The translations under genes and the position numbers were made by a program. From the NCBI GenBank assembly GCA_020072965.1, contig JAIQFY010000002.1:62001-126000 (forward strand): a DNA stretch of 64,000 nt, read 5' to 3'. The stretch's first letter is position 1; each line of letters starts with the position of its first letter. The notes beneath the pieces were generated by a model, which did not search any database, had not been told where the DNA came from, and saw only the letters and a list, made by a program, of their open reading frames with translations. Source of the DNA: Terriglobia bacterium (GTDB taxonomy: Bacteria > Acidobacteriota > Terriglobia > JAIQFV01). Below are positions 2,538 to 36,453 of the stretch, piece by piece.

Positions 2538-5183
2538 CTAAACTTGAGCTGCGCTCGATTGAGATAGCTGCAAGGATTTCAGGCCATTCAGCACCTTCTC
2601 CGGAGTAATCGGGAGATCGCGAATCCGGACGCCAACGGCGTTATAGACCGCGTTGGCGATGGCGGGAGCCACCCCGTTAATTGGAATCTCGGCGATCGCC
2701 TTCGCCCCATAGGGCCCTGTGGGTTCGTAGGTCTCCACCAGGAATGACTTGAGTTCGGGCATATCCACGGCCGTATAAATATTATAGTCCTTGAAGCTGA
2801 GGTTCAGCGGCCTCCCTTTTTCATCAAATACCATTTGCTCCGTTAAGGCGTATCCGAGGGCCTGAGCCACCGCGCCTTCGATCTGTCCTTCTGCCATTTT
2901 CGGATTGATGGCCACCCCACAATCCACCGCGGTGATCAATCGAAGCACCCTCACGATCCCCGTCTCCGCATCCACCTCTACCTCCGCGAACTGGGCACAG
3001 AAGGGGGGCGGAGAGTCATAGGACATGTGGGAAGCATGCCCCTGGATCTGAAATTGATGCTCCTGGTAAAGGGAACGTAAACAGACTTGATCAAAGGTCA
3101 CAAAACGTCCGTCCGGAGCACACACCTTGCCATTGTGCACAACCAGGTCTTTCGTGTCCGGACGGGTGATGGTGCTCGACTCCTTGCCGGCCGGATGGGC
3201 GGCTGTTCCTTTTATTGGATCCAGCATCTCCTCCGCGACTTCGAGGATCTGCTCTCGCGCCTGCTCGCAGGCCTTTTTAACAGCGTTCCCGGAAATGTAA
3301 GTGGTCGAAGAGGCGTACGCTCCGGGATCGAACGGAGTCATATCGGTGTCCGAAGAGTAGACGATGATCTTGTCAGGTGAAGTGCCGAGGGTTTCCGCCG
3401 CGACCTGGGCGAACATGGTGTCCGCCCCGGTCCCAATATCGGTCGCGCCGACCTTCAAGTTGAATGAGCCATCCTCGTTCATCTTGATCCATGCGGCGCC
3501 CATGTCGACGCCGGGAATTCCGGATGCCTGCATGGTACACGACATCCCGACTCCCCGGCAGAGTCGTCGCGAAACCCCGAATTTCAGATCTGAGATTTCA
3601 GATTTCAGAGTTGACGGTTTCGATCTTGCATCCGAATCCTTATCTGTGATTTCAGACCTCAGATTTGTCGGTTTCAATTTCGCATCCGAATCCTTATCTG
3701 AGATTTCAGATTTCAGATTCGTCTGCTTCGAATTTGAATCCCGGTCCTTTTCTGAAATCTCAGATTTCAAATCTGAGATCCCAGCGTTGGACGAATCGGA
3801 AACCCTGGGTCCAAGGATCCATGCCCGGGGATCCGGATTTCGATGCGTCTTCCACCCTATCTCCTTCGCTCCGCGCTCAATGCATTCATCCAGGCCACAG
3901 CTCTGGATCACTTGTTTATACCCCTCACGCCCTTCTCCCAGCACCTCCGCAATGGGCGTCGGTTCTCCCTCGCGCACATGGTTCCTTCTCCTGAATTCCA
4001 GGGGATCGAGCCCCAGCTTTTCGGCCAACTCATCCATGTGCGAGTCCAGCGCAAAAAAACCCTGTGGGCTTCCATATCCCCGAAACGCCCCCGCCACCGG
4101 GAGATTGGTGTAGACCGCGTTGGCCTCAAAGTGGATATTCGGAAATCGGTAGAGCGACAAAGCCCGGCTTCCACTGACGCACTGCACGGTGAGCGCGTGG
4201 GTTCCATAGGCGCCGGTGTTCTCCAGGATGTCCATCGAGATGGCTGTCAGGGTGCCATCCTTCCTGACGCCGGTTTTCATTCGAACAATCTGTGGATGGC
4301 GCGTGCGGGCGGCGTGGAGTTCCTCTGCCCTCGTGTACTCAAGCCGGCAGGGCCGTCCGGTCCGCACCGTCACCATCGCGCACAAATCTTCAATCAGAAT
4401 TTCCTGCTTACCGCCAAATCCTCCGCCAATCCGGGGCTTGATGACGCGGATCTTCTGAACGGGCAGCCCGATCAAGGGCGCAATGATGCGGCGGACATGA
4501 AAGGGCACCTGCGTGGAAGTCCGCACCATCAGTCTTCCATCCTCGTCCATCCAGGTGATAGTGATGTGCGGCTCGATCGATGCTTGCTGCACATAATGGA
4601 CCGTGTATTCTCCCTCATGGACCAGTTCGGCTTCCGCAAATCCTCTTTCAGCGTCGCCCACATCAGCCAGGACATGGGCGGCAATGTTTCGCTGGGGAGA
4701 GTGAATCCCCCGCTTATCGGGCTCCAAATGAAGACGAGGGATTCCGGAGTCAGACGCCTTACGCGGATCAAAGTTGGCCGGCAAAATCTCGTAATCGACC
4801 CCGATCAGATCCAGCGCCCGCTCGGCAATCTCCTCAGAATCCGCGGCCACACAGGCCACCCGGTCACCCACAAAGCGAACCACCGAATCAAACATCACGG
4901 TGTCGTAGGGAGACGGCTCCGGCCAACCCTGCCCGGCCGTGGTATAAGGAACCCGGGGAATATTCAGATACGTGAGGACGCAGCGAACCCCGCGAAGCCG
5001 TTCTGCCTCTTGTACATCGATCCTTTTGATCCGGGCATGCGCATGGGGGGAATGCAGGATCTTCGCATGAATCAACCCATCCATCTTGATGTCGTCAACA
5101 AATGTTCCCTTGCCGGAGGCCAGCTTGACGCTGTCTACACGGCGGGTGTTTTGATGGACACTTTTGAATTCGCGTGTGGGCAT
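2538..5183 (-). CDS. xdhD: Xanthine dehydrogenase-type molybdopterin-binding subunit
   Basis: This 881-residue protein is the large Mo-pterin subunit of the xanthine oxidase family (Ald_Xan_dh_C domains). Visible signatures are the N-terminal GKGTFVDDIKMDGLIHAKI, the pterin-loop regions RIGGGFGGKQE and AFRGYGSPQGFFALDSHMD, and near residue 832 the active-site Glu in GAKAIAEIPINGV, equivalent to the catalytic Glu of bovine XDH. It belongs with the downstream-numbered FeS and FAD subunit genes on the same strand, the three-subunit split form of E. coli XdhD/XdhABC. The probable substrate is a purine, given the neighbouring 8-oxoguanine-deaminase-like gene. Residues about 465-531 are a lysine/serine/aspartate-rich tandem repeat (units of 18 residues such as LKSEISDKDSDAKLKPTN) not expected in the family. 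It is encoded by a palindromic DNA repeat (separate entry), and the reading frame is intact through it. Confidence 0.88.
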   Translation of the reverse strand: MPTREFKSVHQNTRRVDSVKLASGKGTFVDDIKMDGLIHAKILHSPHAHARIKRIDVQEAERLRGVRCVLTYLNIPRVPYTTAGQGWPEPSPYDTVMFDSVVRFVGDRVACVAADSEEIAERALDLIGVDYEILPANFDPRKASDSGIPRLHLEPDKRGIHSPQRNIAAHVLADVGDAERGFAEAELVHEGEYTVHYVQQASIEPHITITWMDEDGRLMVRTSTQVPFHVRRIIAPLIGLPVQKIRVIKPRIGGGFGGKQEILIEDLCAMVTVRTGRPCRLEYTRAEELHAARTRHPQIVRMKTGVRKDGTLTAISMDILENTGAYGTHALTVQCVSGSRALSLYRFPNIHFEANAVYTNLPVAGAFRGYGSPQGFFALDSHMDELAEKLGLDPLEFRRRNHVREGEPTPIAEVLGEGREGYKQVIQSCGLDECIERGAKEIGWKTHRNPDPRAWILGPRVSDSSNAGISDLKSEISEKDRDSNSKQTNLKSEISDKDSDAKLKPTNLRSEITDKDSDARSKPSTLKSEISDLKFGVSRRLCRGVGMSCTMQASGIPGVDMGAAWIKMNEDGSFNLKVGATDIGTGADTMFAQVAAETLGTSPDKIIVYSSDTDMTPFDPGAYASSTTYISGNAVKKACEQAREQILEVAEEMLDPIKGTAAHPAGKESSTITRPDTKDLVVHNGKVCAPDGRFVTFDQVCLRSLYQEHQFQIQGHASHMSYDSPPPFCAQFAEVEVDAETGIVRVLRLITAVDCGVAINPKMAEGQIEGAVAQALGYALTEQMVFDEKGRPLNLSFKDYNIYTAVDMPELKSFLVETYEPTGPYGAKAIAEIPINGVAPAIANAVYNAVGVRIRDLPITPEKVLNGLKSLQLSQSSAAQV
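3585..3790. repeat. In-frame 54-bp tandem repeat / inverted-arm element within the Mo subunit gene
   Basis: About 200 bp made of ATCTGAGATTTCAGATTT-like units. The left end (3590-3612) and right end (3751-3781) are mutually inverted (TCTGAGATTTCAGATT versus its complement AATCTGAAATCTCAGA). Between them, three copies of a 54-bp unit encode the 18-residue protein repeat. Because 54 is a multiple of three, the host frame is preserved. The same AATTTCAGAT/CTGAGAT vocabulary is unlike the surrounding codon use. Confidence 0.8.
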
Positions 5184-5252: not shown

Positions 5253-5957
5253 TTACCCCTCTGAAACCAACTCCTCGGCAGCGCGGAGGACCGCCTCGAC
5301 CGGTTTCAAATAGCCCGTGCACCGGCACAGATTCCCAGCCAGGGCCTCCCGGACTTCCTGTTCACTCGGAGGCAGCTTCTTGATCCCGGGCTTTCTCCTC
5401 ACGGGCGTGACCCTTGTTTTCCGTTTGATAGACGGAAGTTCGATCAACCCCTTCTCAGCGAACAAGGCCAGGCTCGACAAGATCATGCCGGGCGTGCAGT
5501 ATCCGCATTGAATGGCGTGGGCGTCGACAAAGGCTTGCTGAAGGGGATGCAGCAGTTCATACGTCGATGGATGCTCTTCCCGGGAAAAGGCCTCCGGATT
5601 TTGAAATGAAGATTTCGAAGCGGCGTTGGAATCAGATGAATTGTGCCCGGCTCCCCCCTCGACATCACTGGCCTCAGGCAGCTCATTGTGCTGGGCTGCA
5701 CCGCTCATGCTTGCCATCACCCAGGGGATGCCTTCAACGGTGATGACCTCCCGTTCGTCCACCTGGGCTGCCAAGAGGATGCAGGCATTTACGATTCTTC
5801 CATCAACGATCACAGCACAGGCGCCGCAGTCCCCCGTCTCGCATCCGTGTTTCACGCTGAAACAACCGGCCTCTTCCCTTAACAACGACAAGAGGGTGGT
5901 GTTTGCTGGAACGTCAAATTCCCTTTGCTCCGCATTTAAAGCAACCGAGAGTTTCAT
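5253..5957 (-). CDS. 2Fe-2S subunit of xanthine dehydrogenase-type enzyme
   Basis: The 234 residues contain both [2Fe-2S] domains of the family: a plant-type ferredoxin motif (CETGDCGACAV, with a further Cys in NACILL) and the helical domain with CGYCTPGM and CRCTGY. It passes electrons from the Mo centre to the FAD subunit. Family members are usually about 150-175 residues. This one is longer because of two insertions: a polar Ser/Asn/Gly-rich linker at about residues 90-135 between the domains, and a basic segment (PSIKRKTRVTPVRRKP) before NLCRC. The gene starts 7 bp after the FAD subunit stop and is followed after 69 bp by the Mo subunit, a clear operon. All eight expected cysteines appear present. 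Confidence 0.88.
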   Translation of the reverse strand: MKLSVALNAEQREFDVPANTTLLSLLREEAGCFSVKHGCETGDCGACAVIVDGRIVNACILLAAQVDEREVITVEGIPWVMASMSGAAQHNELPEASDVEGGAGHNSSDSNAASKSSFQNPEAFSREEHPSTYELLHPLQQAFVDAHAIQCGYCTPGMILSSLALFAEKGLIELPSIKRKTRVTPVRRKPGIKKLPPSEQEVREALAGNLCRCTGYLKPVEAVLRAAEELVSEG

Positions 5958-16791: not shown

Positions 16792-19700
16792 ATGGATGTT
16801 CCTCCTATAGTGCCATCGCCCGCCGAGGCCGGCAGCCGCGCCGCCGGCCCTGTGACATTCTCCCCCAACGAACTGGTTGCCGACCGCTACAGGATCGTGC
16901 GCTTCATCGGGCAGGGAGGCATGGGGGAGGTTTACGAAGCTGATGACCTGGAACTGCGGCAACGTCTGGCGCTCAAGACTGTCCGCCCCGAGATCGCACT
17001 GGATCAGCAGGCGATCGAGCGCTTCAAGCGAGAGATCCGAATCGCCCGAAAGGTGACGCATCCCAATGTCTGCCGAATCTTCGACCTCGGCCATCACCGC
17101 AGGGCGCCCTCCGGGCACGAGATTACCTTCCTGACTATGGAACTTCTTCCTGGCGAAACCCTTGCCGAGCGGCTTCGGCGGACAGGGCCGATGAGCACTG
17201 CCGAAGCCCTCCCGCTCGCCAAACAAATCACGGCAGGGCTCGCGGCGGCCCACGCGGCAGGGATTGTTCACCGTGATCTGAAGGCCGACAACATCATTTT
17301 GGTTCTTTCCCAGGACGGCCAGCAAACCACACGCGCCGTGGTCACCGATTTCGGGCTAGCCCGTGTCGGCGCTGCCGCCGACCGCCTGACAGAGCTGTCA
17401 ACTGCAATAGAAAGCATCGCGGGGACTCCCGCCTACATGGCTCCCGAGCAGGTCGAGGGTGGGAAGGTCACCGCGGCATCGGATATCTACTCGCTGGGTA
17501 TCGTGCTCTATGAGATCGTGACGGGCGCTCTGCCCTTCATGGGTGATTCACCCCTCTCCACCGCCGTTAAGCGCTTGAAGGAAGTGCCCCCTTCGCCCCG
17601 GTCCCTTGTACCGGGCCTTGATTCCAGATGGGACACTGCCATCCTGCGCTGCCTGGAGCGCGACCCGGCCGACCGCTTTGCGAGCGCCGGGGATGTGGTA
17701 AGGGCTCTAGGGGGCGAGGCTGTGACACTGAGAAGGCGGCCACAGCGACTTCGACTCGCCATCACCGGCGCCTTACTGGTTGTCGTCTTCACTGCGGCGG
17801 CGATCTACTGCCTGCGTGTTATGCGAAAAGTTCAGGAAGGCGCGCCACCCATCGCAGCCGGTCTTCCTGCCGCGCCTGTCAAGGCCCGCCGCTCCGTGGC
17901 TGTGCTGGGTTTCAAGAACCTTTCAGGGCGCGCGGACGCATCCTGGCTGTCCACGGCGCTCTCCGAGATGCTGACCACTGAACTCGCGGCTGGGGGGAAG
18001 GTTCGAACCATCCCCGGTGAGAACATCGCCCAGATGAAGATCAATTTCTCGCTCGCCGATGCGGACAGCTACTCGAAAGAAACGCTCGCCCGGATACGGA
18101 CGAACCTGGGGGCAGATCTGGTGGTTCTCGGCTCCTACACCGTCCTGGGAAAAGAAACCAGCGGGCAGATTCGCCTCGACCTGCGACTTCAGGATGCGGA
18201 GGCCGGAGAGACCATCGCTTCGGCGGCGGAAACGGGCACAGAGACCAAACTCTTCGAGCTGGTTTCGCTGGCTGGAGCGCACCTGCGCGAGAAGCTGGGC
18301 CTGGGAGGAGTTTCAGCGGCGGAGGCGAATATGGTGAAAGCTGAGCTGCCTTCCAACCCTGAGGCCGCGCGCCTCTATGCTGAGGGGCTGGCGAAACTGC
18401 GGCGGTTTGACGCGCTGGCGGCGCGCGAGTTGCTGGCGAAGGCTACGGCAACCGACCCGCAGCATGCCTTGGCGCACTCGGCTCTGGCGGCTGCCTGGTC
18501 GGCGCTGGGCTACGACGCCAAGGCCCAGGAGGAGGCGAAAAGAGCTTTTGAGATTGGGGCGGATCTCTCTCGTGAGGACCGCCTCTCGATCGAGGGGCCC
18601 TACCGGGAAACAACGCATGCGTGGGAAAAGGCCATCGAAATCTACCGGACGCTCTTCAACTTTTTCCCCGACAACCTCGACTATGGCCTTCGGCTGGCTT
18701 CGGCCCAGACGTCGGCAGGAAAGGGGAAAGATGCTCTAATCACGATTGAGGCGCTGCGCAAGCTGCCCACCCCTGCTCGCGACGATCCCCGGCTGGACTT
18801 GACCGAAGCCAGAGCTGCTGAAGCGCTCGGAGACTTTACGCGCCAAGAGTCTGCAGCCGCGACCGCTGCAGCGAAAGCGGCCGCACAGGGGGCACGGCTC
18901 TTCGTGGCTCGAGCGAGACGATCTCAGGGAGTGGCGCTTTATGGCCTCGGGGATTATACGAAGGCCAATGCTCTTTACGAGGAGGCGAAACGGATTTTTG
19001 CCGAAGCGGGGGACCGGGCCGGTGTGGCTTGGACGCTGAACGACACCGCGAACATAAGCTCTGACCGAGGGGATCTCACTGGGGGGAAGAAGATTTACGA
19101 GCAAGCCCTTACGATCTTCTCCGAGACCGGTGACAAGCGGGGCATGGCAGCGGCACAAAACAATATCGCCAGCGTGCTCGTGCTGGAGGGGAATTTGCTG
19201 GCCGCGAAAACGATGTTCGAAAAAGTATTGGCCGTCTCTCGCGAGGTTGGAAACAAGAGTGGCGTAGGGATCGCGCTGAACAATATCGCGGAGGTGCTCT
19301 CGTACCAAGGAGACCTCCCCCATGCGAAAGGGAGATTTAAGGAGGCTCTCGACGTTTATCGCGAGATCGGCGACAAGAATGGCGTCGGGTCTGCGCTGAA
19401 CAATATCGCGGCGGTGCTTTTGCAGCAGGGAGATCTCGCCGGTGCAAAGAAAACGTACGAGGAGGCCTTGCTGATCTGTCGCGAGATCGGAAACAAGAGC
19501 TACTCGGCGAACTGCCTTAATGGGTTAGGGGAAGTCCTCTCGGCACAGGGAGACCTCATCGGGGCGCGAAAGCAGCACGAGGAGGCTCTGGAGATCGAGA
19601 ATCAACTGGGCGAGAAAGGAACGTCCGCCGAAATTCGCCTCGCGCTTGCCATGCTTTCGATCGAAGGGGGGCGTCCAACAGAGGCTGAGGCCCTTGCTTC

Positions 19701-33136: not shown

Positions 33137-34468
33137 TCAATTCTCGACGCACCGGAAACTTGCATAGGCGTATGGGTACTGCGGCTGAAACCAGTTGCGA
33201 AATGAACGCCGCAACATGCACATTGCCGTGCGCGGTGATGCCCCCTTCAGAACAAAATGCTTCCCATCGAAGAAGTCCGCGGAATAGCCCGGATAGAACG
33301 AGAACCGCTCAAACCCCGGCAGGGGCTCAAATAGAGTGCGGGTCCATTCCCAACCGTTCCCCATAAGATCTGCCACTCCAAAGGCACTGTTGCCTCCAGG
33401 AGATGTTCCCACGGGTGCAGGATCCCAGCTCTGGAAATTGAAATTCCCATGCTGCGGCGCGGGAAGATCATTTCCCCAAGGATAGGATCGCTCAACACCC
33501 TCAGGTGTTCCAACGGCAGCGCGGTGCCACTGTGCCTCCGTGGGCAGCGACTTCCCTTTCCAGCGCGCATAGGCGGAGGCCTCGGCATGACTCACATACG
33601 CCGGCCATTGCAGCGGAAGGGGGACCTCAGCAAAGATCGTCCGAAAAATCCAGCCATCGGCGGTTTTGTTCCAGAAGAGAGGGTGGTGGATCTCCGCCGA
33701 GGCTTTCCATTCCCAGTCCGCCGAGGCCCAAAATGAGCAATCTTCGTAAGCCCCACATCGAATGAACTCCAGGAATTCGCCGTTTGTCACGTTGTAAACA
33801 TCGATCCGGAACGGCGGAACCCGGACCGCAAGCCGCTGAAACTCATTGTCGCATCCGAAAGGATGCCCCCTGCCCCGGTGCATCCCCAGGGTCGCCATGC
33901 CCCCGGGAATTTCAACCATTCCGGGCCGGACAGCCGAGGCCGAGACAGTTTTTTTCGCGGGTGGAATCCGCTTTTGATGAAAGGGCAACCGTTGCAACAT
34001 ATAGGTCAATGTCTCGGCGTGCATGAGCCGGTGCTCGATGGCCACATGGAGGAGGTATCCGTCCAAAAGTAATGGAAATTCGGAATCCGCAAATGAGGCC
34101 TTCTGGAGGGCTGCATCGACTTGCCGCCGGGCACACTGGCTGTATCTTCGAACCTCTTCTTCCGAGGGCCAGTCGGTGGGCTGGTCCGAAGGTAATGTTC
34201 CATTGACCGGATCGATTCCAAATGCAAAAAGTCGATCCAAGCTTTTGTCCGCCTGACCCAACCCCAGGGCATGCTGCCCAATCAGGTTCCAGTCAAAGGT
34301 TTCCAGGTGACCAATGTAAAAAACGATTCGATGCCGTTCCGGAATCGGTCGCTCATAAAGGGCCGCGGGATGCACCAATCGAAAAAGTTCATCGGTGCTC
34401 GCCCGGGCTTCCGCCAAACGCGTTAATATTTTCGGGCGAACATCTAAAGTGGGTGCGGCTGCGCTCAT
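33137..34468 (-). CDS. egtB: EgtB-like iron-dependent sulfoxide synthase (ergothioneine biosynthesis)
   Basis: 443 residues, standard EgtB architecture. The N-terminal DinB-like domain carries iron ligands, with a first His in YIGHLETFDWN and the H-x3-H-x-E motif in IEHRLMHAETLTYML. The C-terminal formylglycine-generating-enzyme-like (SUMF1) domain contains WASADWEWKASAEIHHPLFW, YVSHAEASAYARWKGKSLPT and NSAFGVADLMGNGWEWTRTLF. EgtB joins hercynine to a thiol donor (gamma-glutamylcysteine or cysteine) in the presence of O2. EgtC, EgtA and EgtE genes are not in this window, so the Cys-dependent variant or distant genes must be considered. It is upstream of egtD, which it overlaps in transcription. 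Confidence 0.92.
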   Translation of the reverse strand: MSAAAPTLDVRPKILTRLAEARASTDELFRLVHPAALYERPIPERHRIVFYIGHLETFDWNLIGQHALGLGQADKSLDRLFAFGIDPVNGTLPSDQPTDWPSEEEVRRYSQCARRQVDAALQKASFADSEFPLLLDGYLLHVAIEHRLMHAETLTYMLQRLPFHQKRIPPAKKTVSASAVRPGMVEIPGGMATLGMHRGRGHPFGCDNEFQRLAVRVPPFRIDVYNVTNGEFLEFIRCGAYEDCSFWASADWEWKASAEIHHPLFWNKTADGWIFRTIFAEVPLPLQWPAYVSHAEASAYARWKGKSLPTEAQWHRAAVGTPEGVERSYPWGNDLPAPQHGNFNFQSWDPAPVGTSPGGNSAFGVADLMGNGWEWTRTLFEPLPGFERFSFYPGYSADFFDGKHFVLKGASPRTAMCMLRRSFRNWFQPQYPYAYASFRCVEN

Positions 34469-34565: not shown

Positions 34566-34797
34566 AGAAGCAGTGATCAGTGGCCAGTGACCAGTGGCCA
34601 GTAGCCAGTGGTCAGTGCTCAGTGAATAACGAAGTCAAAGAGGTAAGCAATCCGCGAGTGGTTGAGATTATTTGGCAGGAAGGATGCTTGAATACAAAAA
34701 CTGGAAAGCAAACTTACGACGCCTAACCAAAAGCTGACGCCTGACTACCTCGAGCTGACCGGGGCTCACTGGCCACTGGCCACTGACCACTGCTTCT
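34566..34797. repeat. Stutter-repeat inverted element between egtB and the transporter gene
   Basis: The left arm (34566-34625) is built of AGTGGCCAGTGACC-like units, and the right arm (34766-34797) of TCACTGGCCACTGG-type units. Left 34566-34591 and right 34772-34797 are complementary with about two mismatches in 26. They enclose ~140 bp of unrelated AT-richer DNA. The right arm abuts the stop codon of the transporter gene. The element has no gene. It resembles the pair at 36352-36453 and the DNA inside the Mo-subunit gene in design, though with different repeat vocabulary. It could be a MITE-like or bidirectional terminator structure. Confidence 0.7.
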
Positions 34798-36339
34798 TCA
34801 TTTTCCTTCCAGAAACTCATTCACCACCTGTTTCACGTCTCGATGTTCGCTGTCCACCTGGTAGTTGAGACGGCGCATCTCATGATCGGAGACCGTACCG
34901 CCCAGCGAGTTCAAGGCCCCCGCGACTTGAGGATACCTTTCCACGATTCCCTTCCGAACGACGGGAGCCGCCTGGTAGGGAGGGAAATATTGCCGATCAT
35001 CCTGGAGCGCCACCAGACCCAACAGCTCGATCGCCCCATCCGTCGAATTGCCCGCGATGACATCCACCTGGCCGTTTGCGAGCGCCCGGTAGGTGAGTGA
35101 AAGATCCATCTCGCGGGGCGGCTCCACGAATTTCAAATCATAGGTTCGGGAGAAACCCGGATACCCATCCGGCCTCGACATGAAGTCCTGCCCAAACCCG
35201 GCTCGCCAGCGGGGCGCGTAGCGCGAGATGTCGGATATTTTTCGAAGGCTCAGGCGTTGAGCTTCGTCCCCCCGCACCAGGATCGCGAAAGTGTTATTGA
35301 ATCCCAGTGGCGCCAGCCACACCAGGCCGAACCTTTCCAAATATTCCCGCTTGACCTGAACATATACGGCACCCGGATCAGCTATGGGCTGATGCTTGAG
35401 GATGGCCGCGAAAGCCGTGCCCGTGTACTCGACATAAATGTCAATCTCCCCGGCCAGCAGGGCGCGATGGCAGAGATCTCCTCCCAGTTCAAACCTTCGT
35501 TCCACGTCGAGGCCTGTCCGCCGTTCAATCTGCCGGGCGATTAATTCACCCAGAATCACCTGCTCTGTAAAATCCTTCGACCCGACGACGATGCGATGAA
35601 TGGGCGGTATTCGGGTGACACGGCTCAAAGTCAAGAATCCGATCAGGATGATTCCTACCATCACCAGGGCCGGCACCCATTTCCGCGAAGGATTTTTGCC
35701 CGAACTTCGGTGGAACTTCAATATGCTTTCCAACCGGCCGAGCATGAAATCAGCCGCCAGCGCCATAAGGGCTGCAGGGAGCGCCCCGGCCAGAATCAGC
35801 TGATTGTCATTCATGCGCAGCCCCCGGAAGATGTATGTTCCCAGTCCTCCAGCTCCAATCGCGGCCGCGATCGTGGCAGTCCCCACCGAAATCACCGTTG
35901 CGACACGTACTCCCGCGAGAATCACGCTGAGCGAAAGTGGCAGTTCCACTTGCACCAGGATTTGCCAGTCAGTCATTCCCATGCCGAGCGCCGCTTCCCG
36001 GACCGCGGGTTCGACCCCCCGAATGCCTGTAAAGGTGTTTTGGATAATGGGAAGTAATGAGTAAATGAACAATGCGATGACGGCGGGGACTTGGCCGATC
36101 CCGTGAGTGCCAAGCAGCGGGATAAGAAAACCAAACAGCGCCAAGCTGGGAATGGTTTGCAGGACATTCGCCATGCCCAGGACGAGCTTGCTTAAACCCG
36201 GCTTCCTCGTCAGAAAAATCCCAATAGGTATGCCGATGCAAATGCCCGCCCCCGTCCCCGACGCCACCAGGAACAAATGCTGAAGGACGAGGGCGAGAGC
36301 TTCGGCACGGTTACGGATGAGAAAATCAATCAGGCCCAT
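34798..36339 (-). CDS. Fused permease / substrate-binding protein of OpuC/EgtU type
   Basis: About 513 residues from the ATG at 36339 (GGGACATCCT upstream). Residues 1-215 are a BPD-type ABC permease with six predicted spans, including VLQTIPSLALFGFLIPLLG and the EAA-type loop VEPAVREAALGMGMTDWQI. After a membrane anchor (VPALVMVGIILIGFLTLS), residues ~240-513 are an OpuC-type binding domain: VVGSKDFTEQVILGELIARQ, IDIYVEYTGTAFAAI, NGQVDVIAGNSTDGAI. Permease and receptor fusions of this type import glycine betaine or other quaternary amines. The EgtU members of the family bind ergothioneine. Beside egtB and egtD, and with its ATPase next, ergothioneine or hercynine transport is a reasonable hypothesis. 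Betaine or choline uptake is the alternative. Confidence 0.88.
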   Translation of the reverse strand: MGLIDFLIRNRAEALALVLQHLFLVASGTGAGICIGIPIGIFLTRKPGLSKLVLGMANVLQTIPSLALFGFLIPLLGTHGIGQVPAVIALFIYSLLPIIQNTFTGIRGVEPAVREAALGMGMTDWQILVQVELPLSLSVILAGVRVATVISVGTATIAAAIGAGGLGTYIFRGLRMNDNQLILAGALPAALMALAADFMLGRLESILKFHRSSGKNPSRKWVPALVMVGIILIGFLTLSRVTRIPPIHRIVVGSKDFTEQVILGELIARQIERRTGLDVERRFELGGDLCHRALLAGEIDIYVEYTGTAFAAILKHQPIADPGAVYVQVKREYLERFGLVWLAPLGFNNTFAILVRGDEAQRLSLRKISDISRYAPRWRAGFGQDFMSRPDGYPGFSRTYDLKFVEPPREMDLSLTYRALANGQVDVIAGNSTDGAIELLGLVALQDDRQYFPPYQAAPVVRKGIVERYPQVAGALNSLGGTVSDHEMRRLNYQVDSEHRDVKQVVNEFLEGK

Positions 36340-36351
36340 AGGATGTCCCAT

Positions 36352-36453
36352 TGTGAATTGCGGAATGCGGATTTCGGATGGCGGAGTGCGGAATTCAACC
36401 TCCACCTCCTCAAATCTGCAATCTCAATTCAATTCGCAATCCGAAATTCCATC
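36352..36453. repeat. Stutter-repeat element between permease and ATPase genes
   Basis: Left arm 36352-36395 (units such as GAATTGCGGAATGCGGATTTCGGAT) and right arm 36411-36453 (AATCTGCAATCTCAATTCAA, CGCAATCCGAAATTCC) are imperfect inverted copies. TTTCGGAT(T/G)GCG is the best-matching core. The element fills the gap between the two transporter genes, so the arms may fold into an intercistronic hairpin in the mRNA. Confidence 0.6.

Follow-up and report, generated by a model that had tools for sequence, protein, structure and literature searches.

How a tandem palindromic repeat can come to lie in frame inside the gene of a conserved enzyme is the question raised by positions 3564-3782 (minus strand) of the DNA analysed here, a window of 64,000 nucleotides from contig JAIQFY010000002.1 of a Terriglobia bacterium. 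The host gene (2538-5183, minus strand) encodes an 881-residue molybdopterin-binding (Mo) subunit of the xanthine dehydrogenase (XDH) family and adjoins the genes for the FAD and 2Fe-2S subunits. Its Pfam domains are Ald_Xan_dh_C (residues 23-134), MoCoBD_1 (165-401) and MoCoBD_2 (527-809), and the best match in the PDB is the alpha subunit of 4-hydroxybenzoyl-CoA reductase (1rm6). The neighbouring 2Fe-2S subunit (window 5253-5957) has apparent extra low-complexity segments near EASDVEGGAGHNSSDSNAASKSS, which are not heptamer-like. The lineage-specific insert, delimited by comparison with orthologues, comprises residues 468-540 of the Mo subunit.

The basic unit of the insert is a degenerate 7-nt heptamer, ATYTSAR, repeated at exact 7-nt spacing. 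In coding orientation, a tract of four heptamers, 33 nt, a tract of three, 33 nt, a second tract of three, 33 nt and a tract of about four follow one another. The first of these, tract A (3752-3779, minus strand; ATCTCAG ATTTGAA ATCTGAG ATTTCAG), was defined by reading the sequence, and the terminal tract D (3583-3610, minus strand), its inverted partner, by repeat search and reading. Three heptamers (21 nt) plus a 33-nt spacer form a 54-bp unit (54 = 3 x 7 + 33), and Tandem Repeats Finder, repeat search and reading place unit 1 at 3719-3772, unit 2 at 3665-3718 and unit 3, in which two heptamers are degenerate, at 3611-3664, all on the minus strand. A previous sequence-only reading had claimed three tandem 54-bp copies between inverted arms with the frame kept, and each part holds. 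Tandem Repeats Finder reports 3588-3769 with period 54, 3.4 copies, 82% matches and a score of 225, and the repeat search finds three copies at 54 spacing that are 100, 85 and 76% identical. The arms, 3581-3609 and 3751-3779 (29 nt, 83% complementary), correspond to tracts A and D, and the 881-residue frame runs across the insert without a stop. The "inverted arms" arise because both orientations of a quasi-palindromic heptamer are mixed. Since the 54-bp copies differ from one another, the insert is not an assembly duplication. Chance is also excluded: when up to two mismatches are allowed, ATTTCAGATTTCAGA occurs 9 times in the window, against an expectation of 0.20, and 8 of these occurrences fall inside the insert stretch. 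The RNA hairpin potential of the insert is strong (z -5.7), which alone implies no function. The native linker was considered as the source of the 33-nt spacer, but this origin is not claimed, the similarity being weak and equalled by 9 of 500 shuffles.

Because the lowest common multiple of 3 and 7 is 21 nt, a heptamer array is read as a seven-codon heptad in all three frames. A pure (ATCTGAA)n array has a TGA stop in each of the three (I*NLKSE), and its reverse strand is open (ISDFRFQ). Within the tracts of the insert, the heptamer whose T-S-A falls in frame always carries C, giving LKSEISD, a heptad that owes its freedom from stops to the strand-flipping of one heptamer in every three. The same stop-codon logic has been described for TAACTGA repeats, whose forward arrays have stops in all frames and whose insertion between protein modules was proposed as tolerable (PMC4679880). 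A general rule follows from this arrangement: any heptanucleotide array in coding DNA is translated into a repeating heptad, and whether that peptide repeat is open depends on mixed orientation.

The AlphaFold model of the Mo subunit (pTM 0.82) has a good fold outside residues 460-538, a segment that has a pLDDT of ~30 and no stable helix. The low-complexity charged loop anticipated from sequence thus agrees with the model, in which the insert region is probably a disordered inter-domain linker. In nicotinate dehydrogenase (3hrd), chain A aligns to residues 5-415 of the Mo subunit and chain B to residues 545-870; the linker is therefore a natural break point, since the two halves of that enzyme are separate chains. 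The dN/dS ratio is 0.083 in the gene and 0.38 in the insert, the latter over 37 codons only. The host gene is thus functional and under strong constraint, and the insert is under looser constraint.

Orthologue comparison limits the heptamer insert to one genus. A congener (G001, 90% identical) carries one 54-bp unit and two tracts, and the insert of the present genome is exactly 36 residues (2 x 54 bp) longer. A member of the same family (G002, record JAQUPQ010000057, a Terriglobia metagenome-assembled genome, or MAG, as are many of the genomes compared) has a short linker with no heptamers, and in most other orthologues the linker is ~10-20 residues long and without an insert. The alignment thus bears out the suspected lineage restriction, and no distant orthologue carries the same repeat. 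In a distant relative of another family (G049), the Mo-subunit linker contains an unrelated 100-nt palindrome (L034, G049:C265:20322-20426) that is in frame, is translated as AGSAGETACPTTASTGLPEVAQAVSP and has 73 matches on both strands of its own genome. Two dispersed palindromes have therefore entered one linker independently. Related genomes with zero, one and three units, together with the unrelated palindrome that occupies this site in another family, make this a clean comparative case, in which selfish-looking repeat DNA lengthens a protein at a permissive hinge.

The sequence-only reading had further suggested that the intergenic stutter-repeat family of this genome is able to colonise coding DNA. 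The unit with its spacer has no other copy in this genome; only heptamer cores and tracts recur. In pattern searches, on which all genome-wide counts rest, three tandem ATYTSAR heptamers have 34+34 matches in this genome, 16+16 in the congener and 0 in G002, and the reversed pattern used as a control has 0 in all 61 genomes. Across the class, 39 of 250 genomes match, the control pattern occurring in two genomes, once each. The vocabulary is present at more than 20 loci of this genome, often with an identical 21-mer, and the tracts sampled are nearly all intergenic. Only two coding loci were found among them, the Mo-subunit insert and, on contig C9, two PF05635 genes in tandem. The claim of colonisation stands insofar as S23-like genes, too, contain in-frame heptamer tracts, and falls insofar as the insert is not a transposed copy of fixed sequence. 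The dispersed copies and the insert have in common only a heptamer core of 20-35 nt. One dispersed intergenic family of this genome, with a hairpin CCGATC..GATCGG, the palindromic core ATCTGAAATTTCAAATTTGAGAT and flanks ~70-88% alike over 150-500 bp (L091, L095-L100, L102, L106, L107, L126 and L127; no Rfam family), was considered as a possible parent but rejected, since the insert has none of these flanks.

ATYTSAR is one vocabulary among several: intergenic stutters with a period of 7 are also built of CAGTGRC, GGAAGTC, CAGTTNT and others. When one threshold is applied to all lags, 4 segments are obtained at lag 7 in the window and 17 in a further 133 kb of this genome, from loci partly chosen for ATYTSAR; lags 4-6 and 8-12 yield none in either. 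Many stutter tracts form complementary inverted pairs with short loops. An Rfam search of 20 tract loci (118 kb) found no family covering the stutter elements. A Moco riboswitch (RF01055) lies at L099:3905-4040, ~0.9 kb from a heptamer tract.

The contig C9 genes encode 23S_rRNA_IVP (S23) four-helix-bundle proteins, a family that resembles the retroelement accessory protein Avd (PMC10053308). Their in-frame tract lies at DLKSEISDLKS, the identical place being used in S23 relatives from other families, and in one genome (G052) the only exact tracts flank its S23 gene. A stretch used as a control also contains two inverted heptamer arms, 436 nt apart, that bracket a PF05635 gene (9.7e-31) between ftsW and murG. 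Among related genomes, the ftsW-murG gap is empty or short in L254, L258 and L259, and is occupied by gene-less inverted heptamer pairs with different vocabularies in L256 (AAAAGTC) and L255 (AGACGCA). Within one genus (L253, L255, L256 and L257) the gap thus contains the S23 element, two different gene-less pairs, or a remnant, and from these sequences it appears to be a turnover hotspot. No clean target-site duplication was seen there or at the Mo-subunit linker.

The association was assessed by a flank test, which scored upstream and downstream flanks against mismatched pairs with gene starts approximate and runs of N masked. The 70 PF05635 loci were drawn from the hits, mostly the top-ranked ones, of an HMM search across 17 genomes, and the 171 control genes from a simple ORF caller run on contigs of the same genomes. 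Fifty-five of the former and 3 of the latter exceeded the 95% point; at the 99% point the numbers were 27 and 0. The autocorrelation of the arms is 0.587 at lag 7, 0.583 at lag 14 and 0.23-0.28 at other lags, and the letters of the arms are specific to each locus while the period is constant. Among plasmid S23 genes, 7 of 12 (cyanobacteria, Gemmatirosa, Azospirillum) exceeded the 95% point; the Gemmatirosa plasmid gene L316 has inverted arms with a period of apparently ~8 rather than 7. In the present genome (G000), the S23 genes sampled have arms of vocabularies other than ATYTSAR. Statistically, then, inverted stutter arms of period 7 enclose S23 genes in several phyla. Tracts also co-occur with the S23 subfamily that has LKSEISDLKS (15 of 22 genomes with it, 24 of 228 without it), but this comparison was set aside in favour of the flank test as partly circular, the gene itself carrying a tract. 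The open literature searched contained no paper linking PF05635 genes to heptamer arms, and the main text of the two heptanucleotide-repeat papers on Beggiatoaceae (PMC4679880) and Geobacter (PMC2700814) does not mention S23 genes. These results suggest an overlooked class of mobile elements. The bracketing would connect heptamer repeats with S23 proteins, both of them long unexplained, and would open both to testing.

The STRRs of cyanobacteria are heptanucleotide repeats. Other bacterial examples are TAACTGA in Beggiatoaceae (PMC4679880), GGACCGG and MTYCTGA in Geobacter metallireducens (PMC2700814), and GGGNATC in Xanthomonas and Nostoc (PMC4692102). Like these, the repeats described here have a 7-nt unit and few copies per tract, are mostly intergenic with some in genes, and, as for most of those in Geobacter, are often paired. 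The insert also has the tandem 7-nt units at several genomic loci that define STRR/LSSR repeats and, at the level of congeners, their variation in copy number (one and three 54-bp units). In contrast to the known repeats, its heptamers are degenerate and of mixed orientation, which opens the frame, and its tract lies mid-protein between domains of a conserved enzyme, in 54-bp units of higher order. The 23S rRNA intervening sequences carry an S23/IVP (PF05635) gene within a terminal inverted-repeat stem loop of ~430-550 nt; in Coxiella the S23 element measures 428 nt and has, besides its inverted-repeat stem, strain-variable tandem heptamers (GACAGAT) before the ORF (PMC4990558). The S23 elements found here likewise enclose the gene within inverted-repeat arms, but they are intergenic (for example between ftsW and murG), occur many times per genome and have heptamer-stutter arms. 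Unlike the Coxiella element, the insert in the Mo subunit lacks a separate ORF: it has the inverted period-7 arms of the S23/IVP class, but Pfam search and reading find only spacers, and no PF05635 gene, between them. It is thus at most a gene-less derivative of such an element.

PARCELs are tandem coding repeats with DNA dyad symmetry and an amphipathic pattern; their motif has 25 residues, and the ORFs that carry it have no assigned function (PMC2996958). The insert is a tandem coding repeat with dyad symmetry and an amphipathic pattern as well, but its unit, by the length comparison made here, has 18 residues, lies in a known enzyme and forms no domain family. Rickettsia palindromic elements, to which the insert had been likened, were reportedly described by Ogata et al. 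in 2000. They comprise families of 100-150 bp with recognisable sequence, which lie in ORFs without breaking the frame and also in non-coding DNA (PMC3767692). The likeness extends to an in-frame palindrome in a pre-existing ORF with a dispersed core; it ends at the unit, which is private to one gene, built of 7-nt units and without conserved flanks. Systems in which dispersed palindromes accompany a gene are also known. REP/BIME sequences are dispersed inverted palindromes that flank a gene for a tyrosine transposase, RAYT. Dispersed inverted palindromes and the S23 genes that they flank are arranged similarly, except that these genes encode a four-helix bundle (PF05635) and the arms have their period, not their sequence, in common.

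We propose that a short gene-less palindromic element, in which a 33-nt spacer separates two ATYTSAR tracts, inserted into the linker or originated there in the ancestor of the genus, as its absence from G002, the single unit in the congener and the three units here would indicate. It would have survived because the linker tolerates in-frame filler and strand-flipped heptamers remove TGA; tolerance is suggested by the predicted disorder, by the chain break of nicotinate dehydrogenase and by the other palindrome in another family. Slippage, or unequal recombination between tracts, would then have added two further 54-bp units here or removed them in the congener, and steps of 54 bp keep the frame. 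The insert presumably has no role in catalysis, and would be a gene-less, coding-trapped member of the S23-linked period-7 class. Having no S23 gene, and none of the conserved flanks that the flank comparison found for the dispersed ATYTSAR palindromes of this genome, it is tied to that class only by vocabulary, period and inverted layout. Taken as a whole, from entry or origin through tolerance and 54-bp changes to membership in the class, we regard this account as somewhat more likely than not. A period that stays constant while the letters change suggests that a 7-nt unit is copied reiteratively or slips. On a broader view, bacterial heptanucleotide stutters, known from many phyla as isolated oddities, would be the arms of one class of mobile element encoding S23/IVP, with gene-less derivatives that are intergenic and occasionally trapped in frame in proteins, as in the Mo subunit, and with the period of 7 set by the machinery, since the letters vary by locus. 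We advance this generalisation tentatively, at somewhat less than an even chance.

The same constancy of period over several vocabularies could instead reflect a 7-nt slippage bias common to the linker and the intergenic stutters, the insert then being a heptanucleotide microsatellite that grew in situ, without any mobile element, in a fast-evolving linker. In many genomes no long simple repeats are more abundant than heptanucleotides, for which slippage by 7 nt has been proposed (PMC4679880); the differing number of 54-bp copies in congeners fits as well. The degenerate tracts, many of which are complementary inverted pairs, are not what slippage alone makes, and recurrence of the vocabulary at more than 20 loci, often with the same 21-mer, also stands against growth in place, so that we think this origin unlikely, though a serious contender. 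A family of transposed copies with a fixed sequence, invading the genes of this lineage in the manner of the Rickettsia elements, would explain an insert that is in frame, palindromic and lineage-restricted, with a dispersed core motif. Against it are the privacy of the 54-bp unit to the Mo-subunit gene, the 20-35-nt core as the sole likeness between insert and dispersed copies, and the restriction of coding tracts to two sampled loci, and such a family appears improbable.

Retention of the repeat by selection, as an mRNA hairpin controlling expression, a functional linker or a coiled-coil heptad, could draw on the z of -5.7, on the translated LKSEISD heptad and on an insert dN/dS of 0.38, which is below 1. 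That ratio rests on few informative sites (37 codons), the copy number varies between congeners, model confidence is ~30 with no stable helix, and other orthologues do without the insert; we accordingly hold a selected function to be very improbable. The preferred reading remains that of a palindromic element that entered or arose in a tolerant linker.

Elsewhere in the window, stutter and pair searches identified a gene-less inverted CAGTGRC heptamer-stutter pair, with its left arm at 34566-34633 (plus strand) and its right arm, ~124 nt further on, at 34757-34802 (minus strand). The pair sits between a gene ending near 34468, EgtB-like from its sequence, and an ABC-transporter gene (34798-36405). 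A 120-bp tandem repeat of 2.2 copies occupies 19239-19498. At 36349-36396, a GCGGAAT-type period-7 stutter reads as the N-terminus (EFRTPPSEIRIPQF) of the ORF at 34798-36405, whose true start is probably an inner ATG (MGHPMG).
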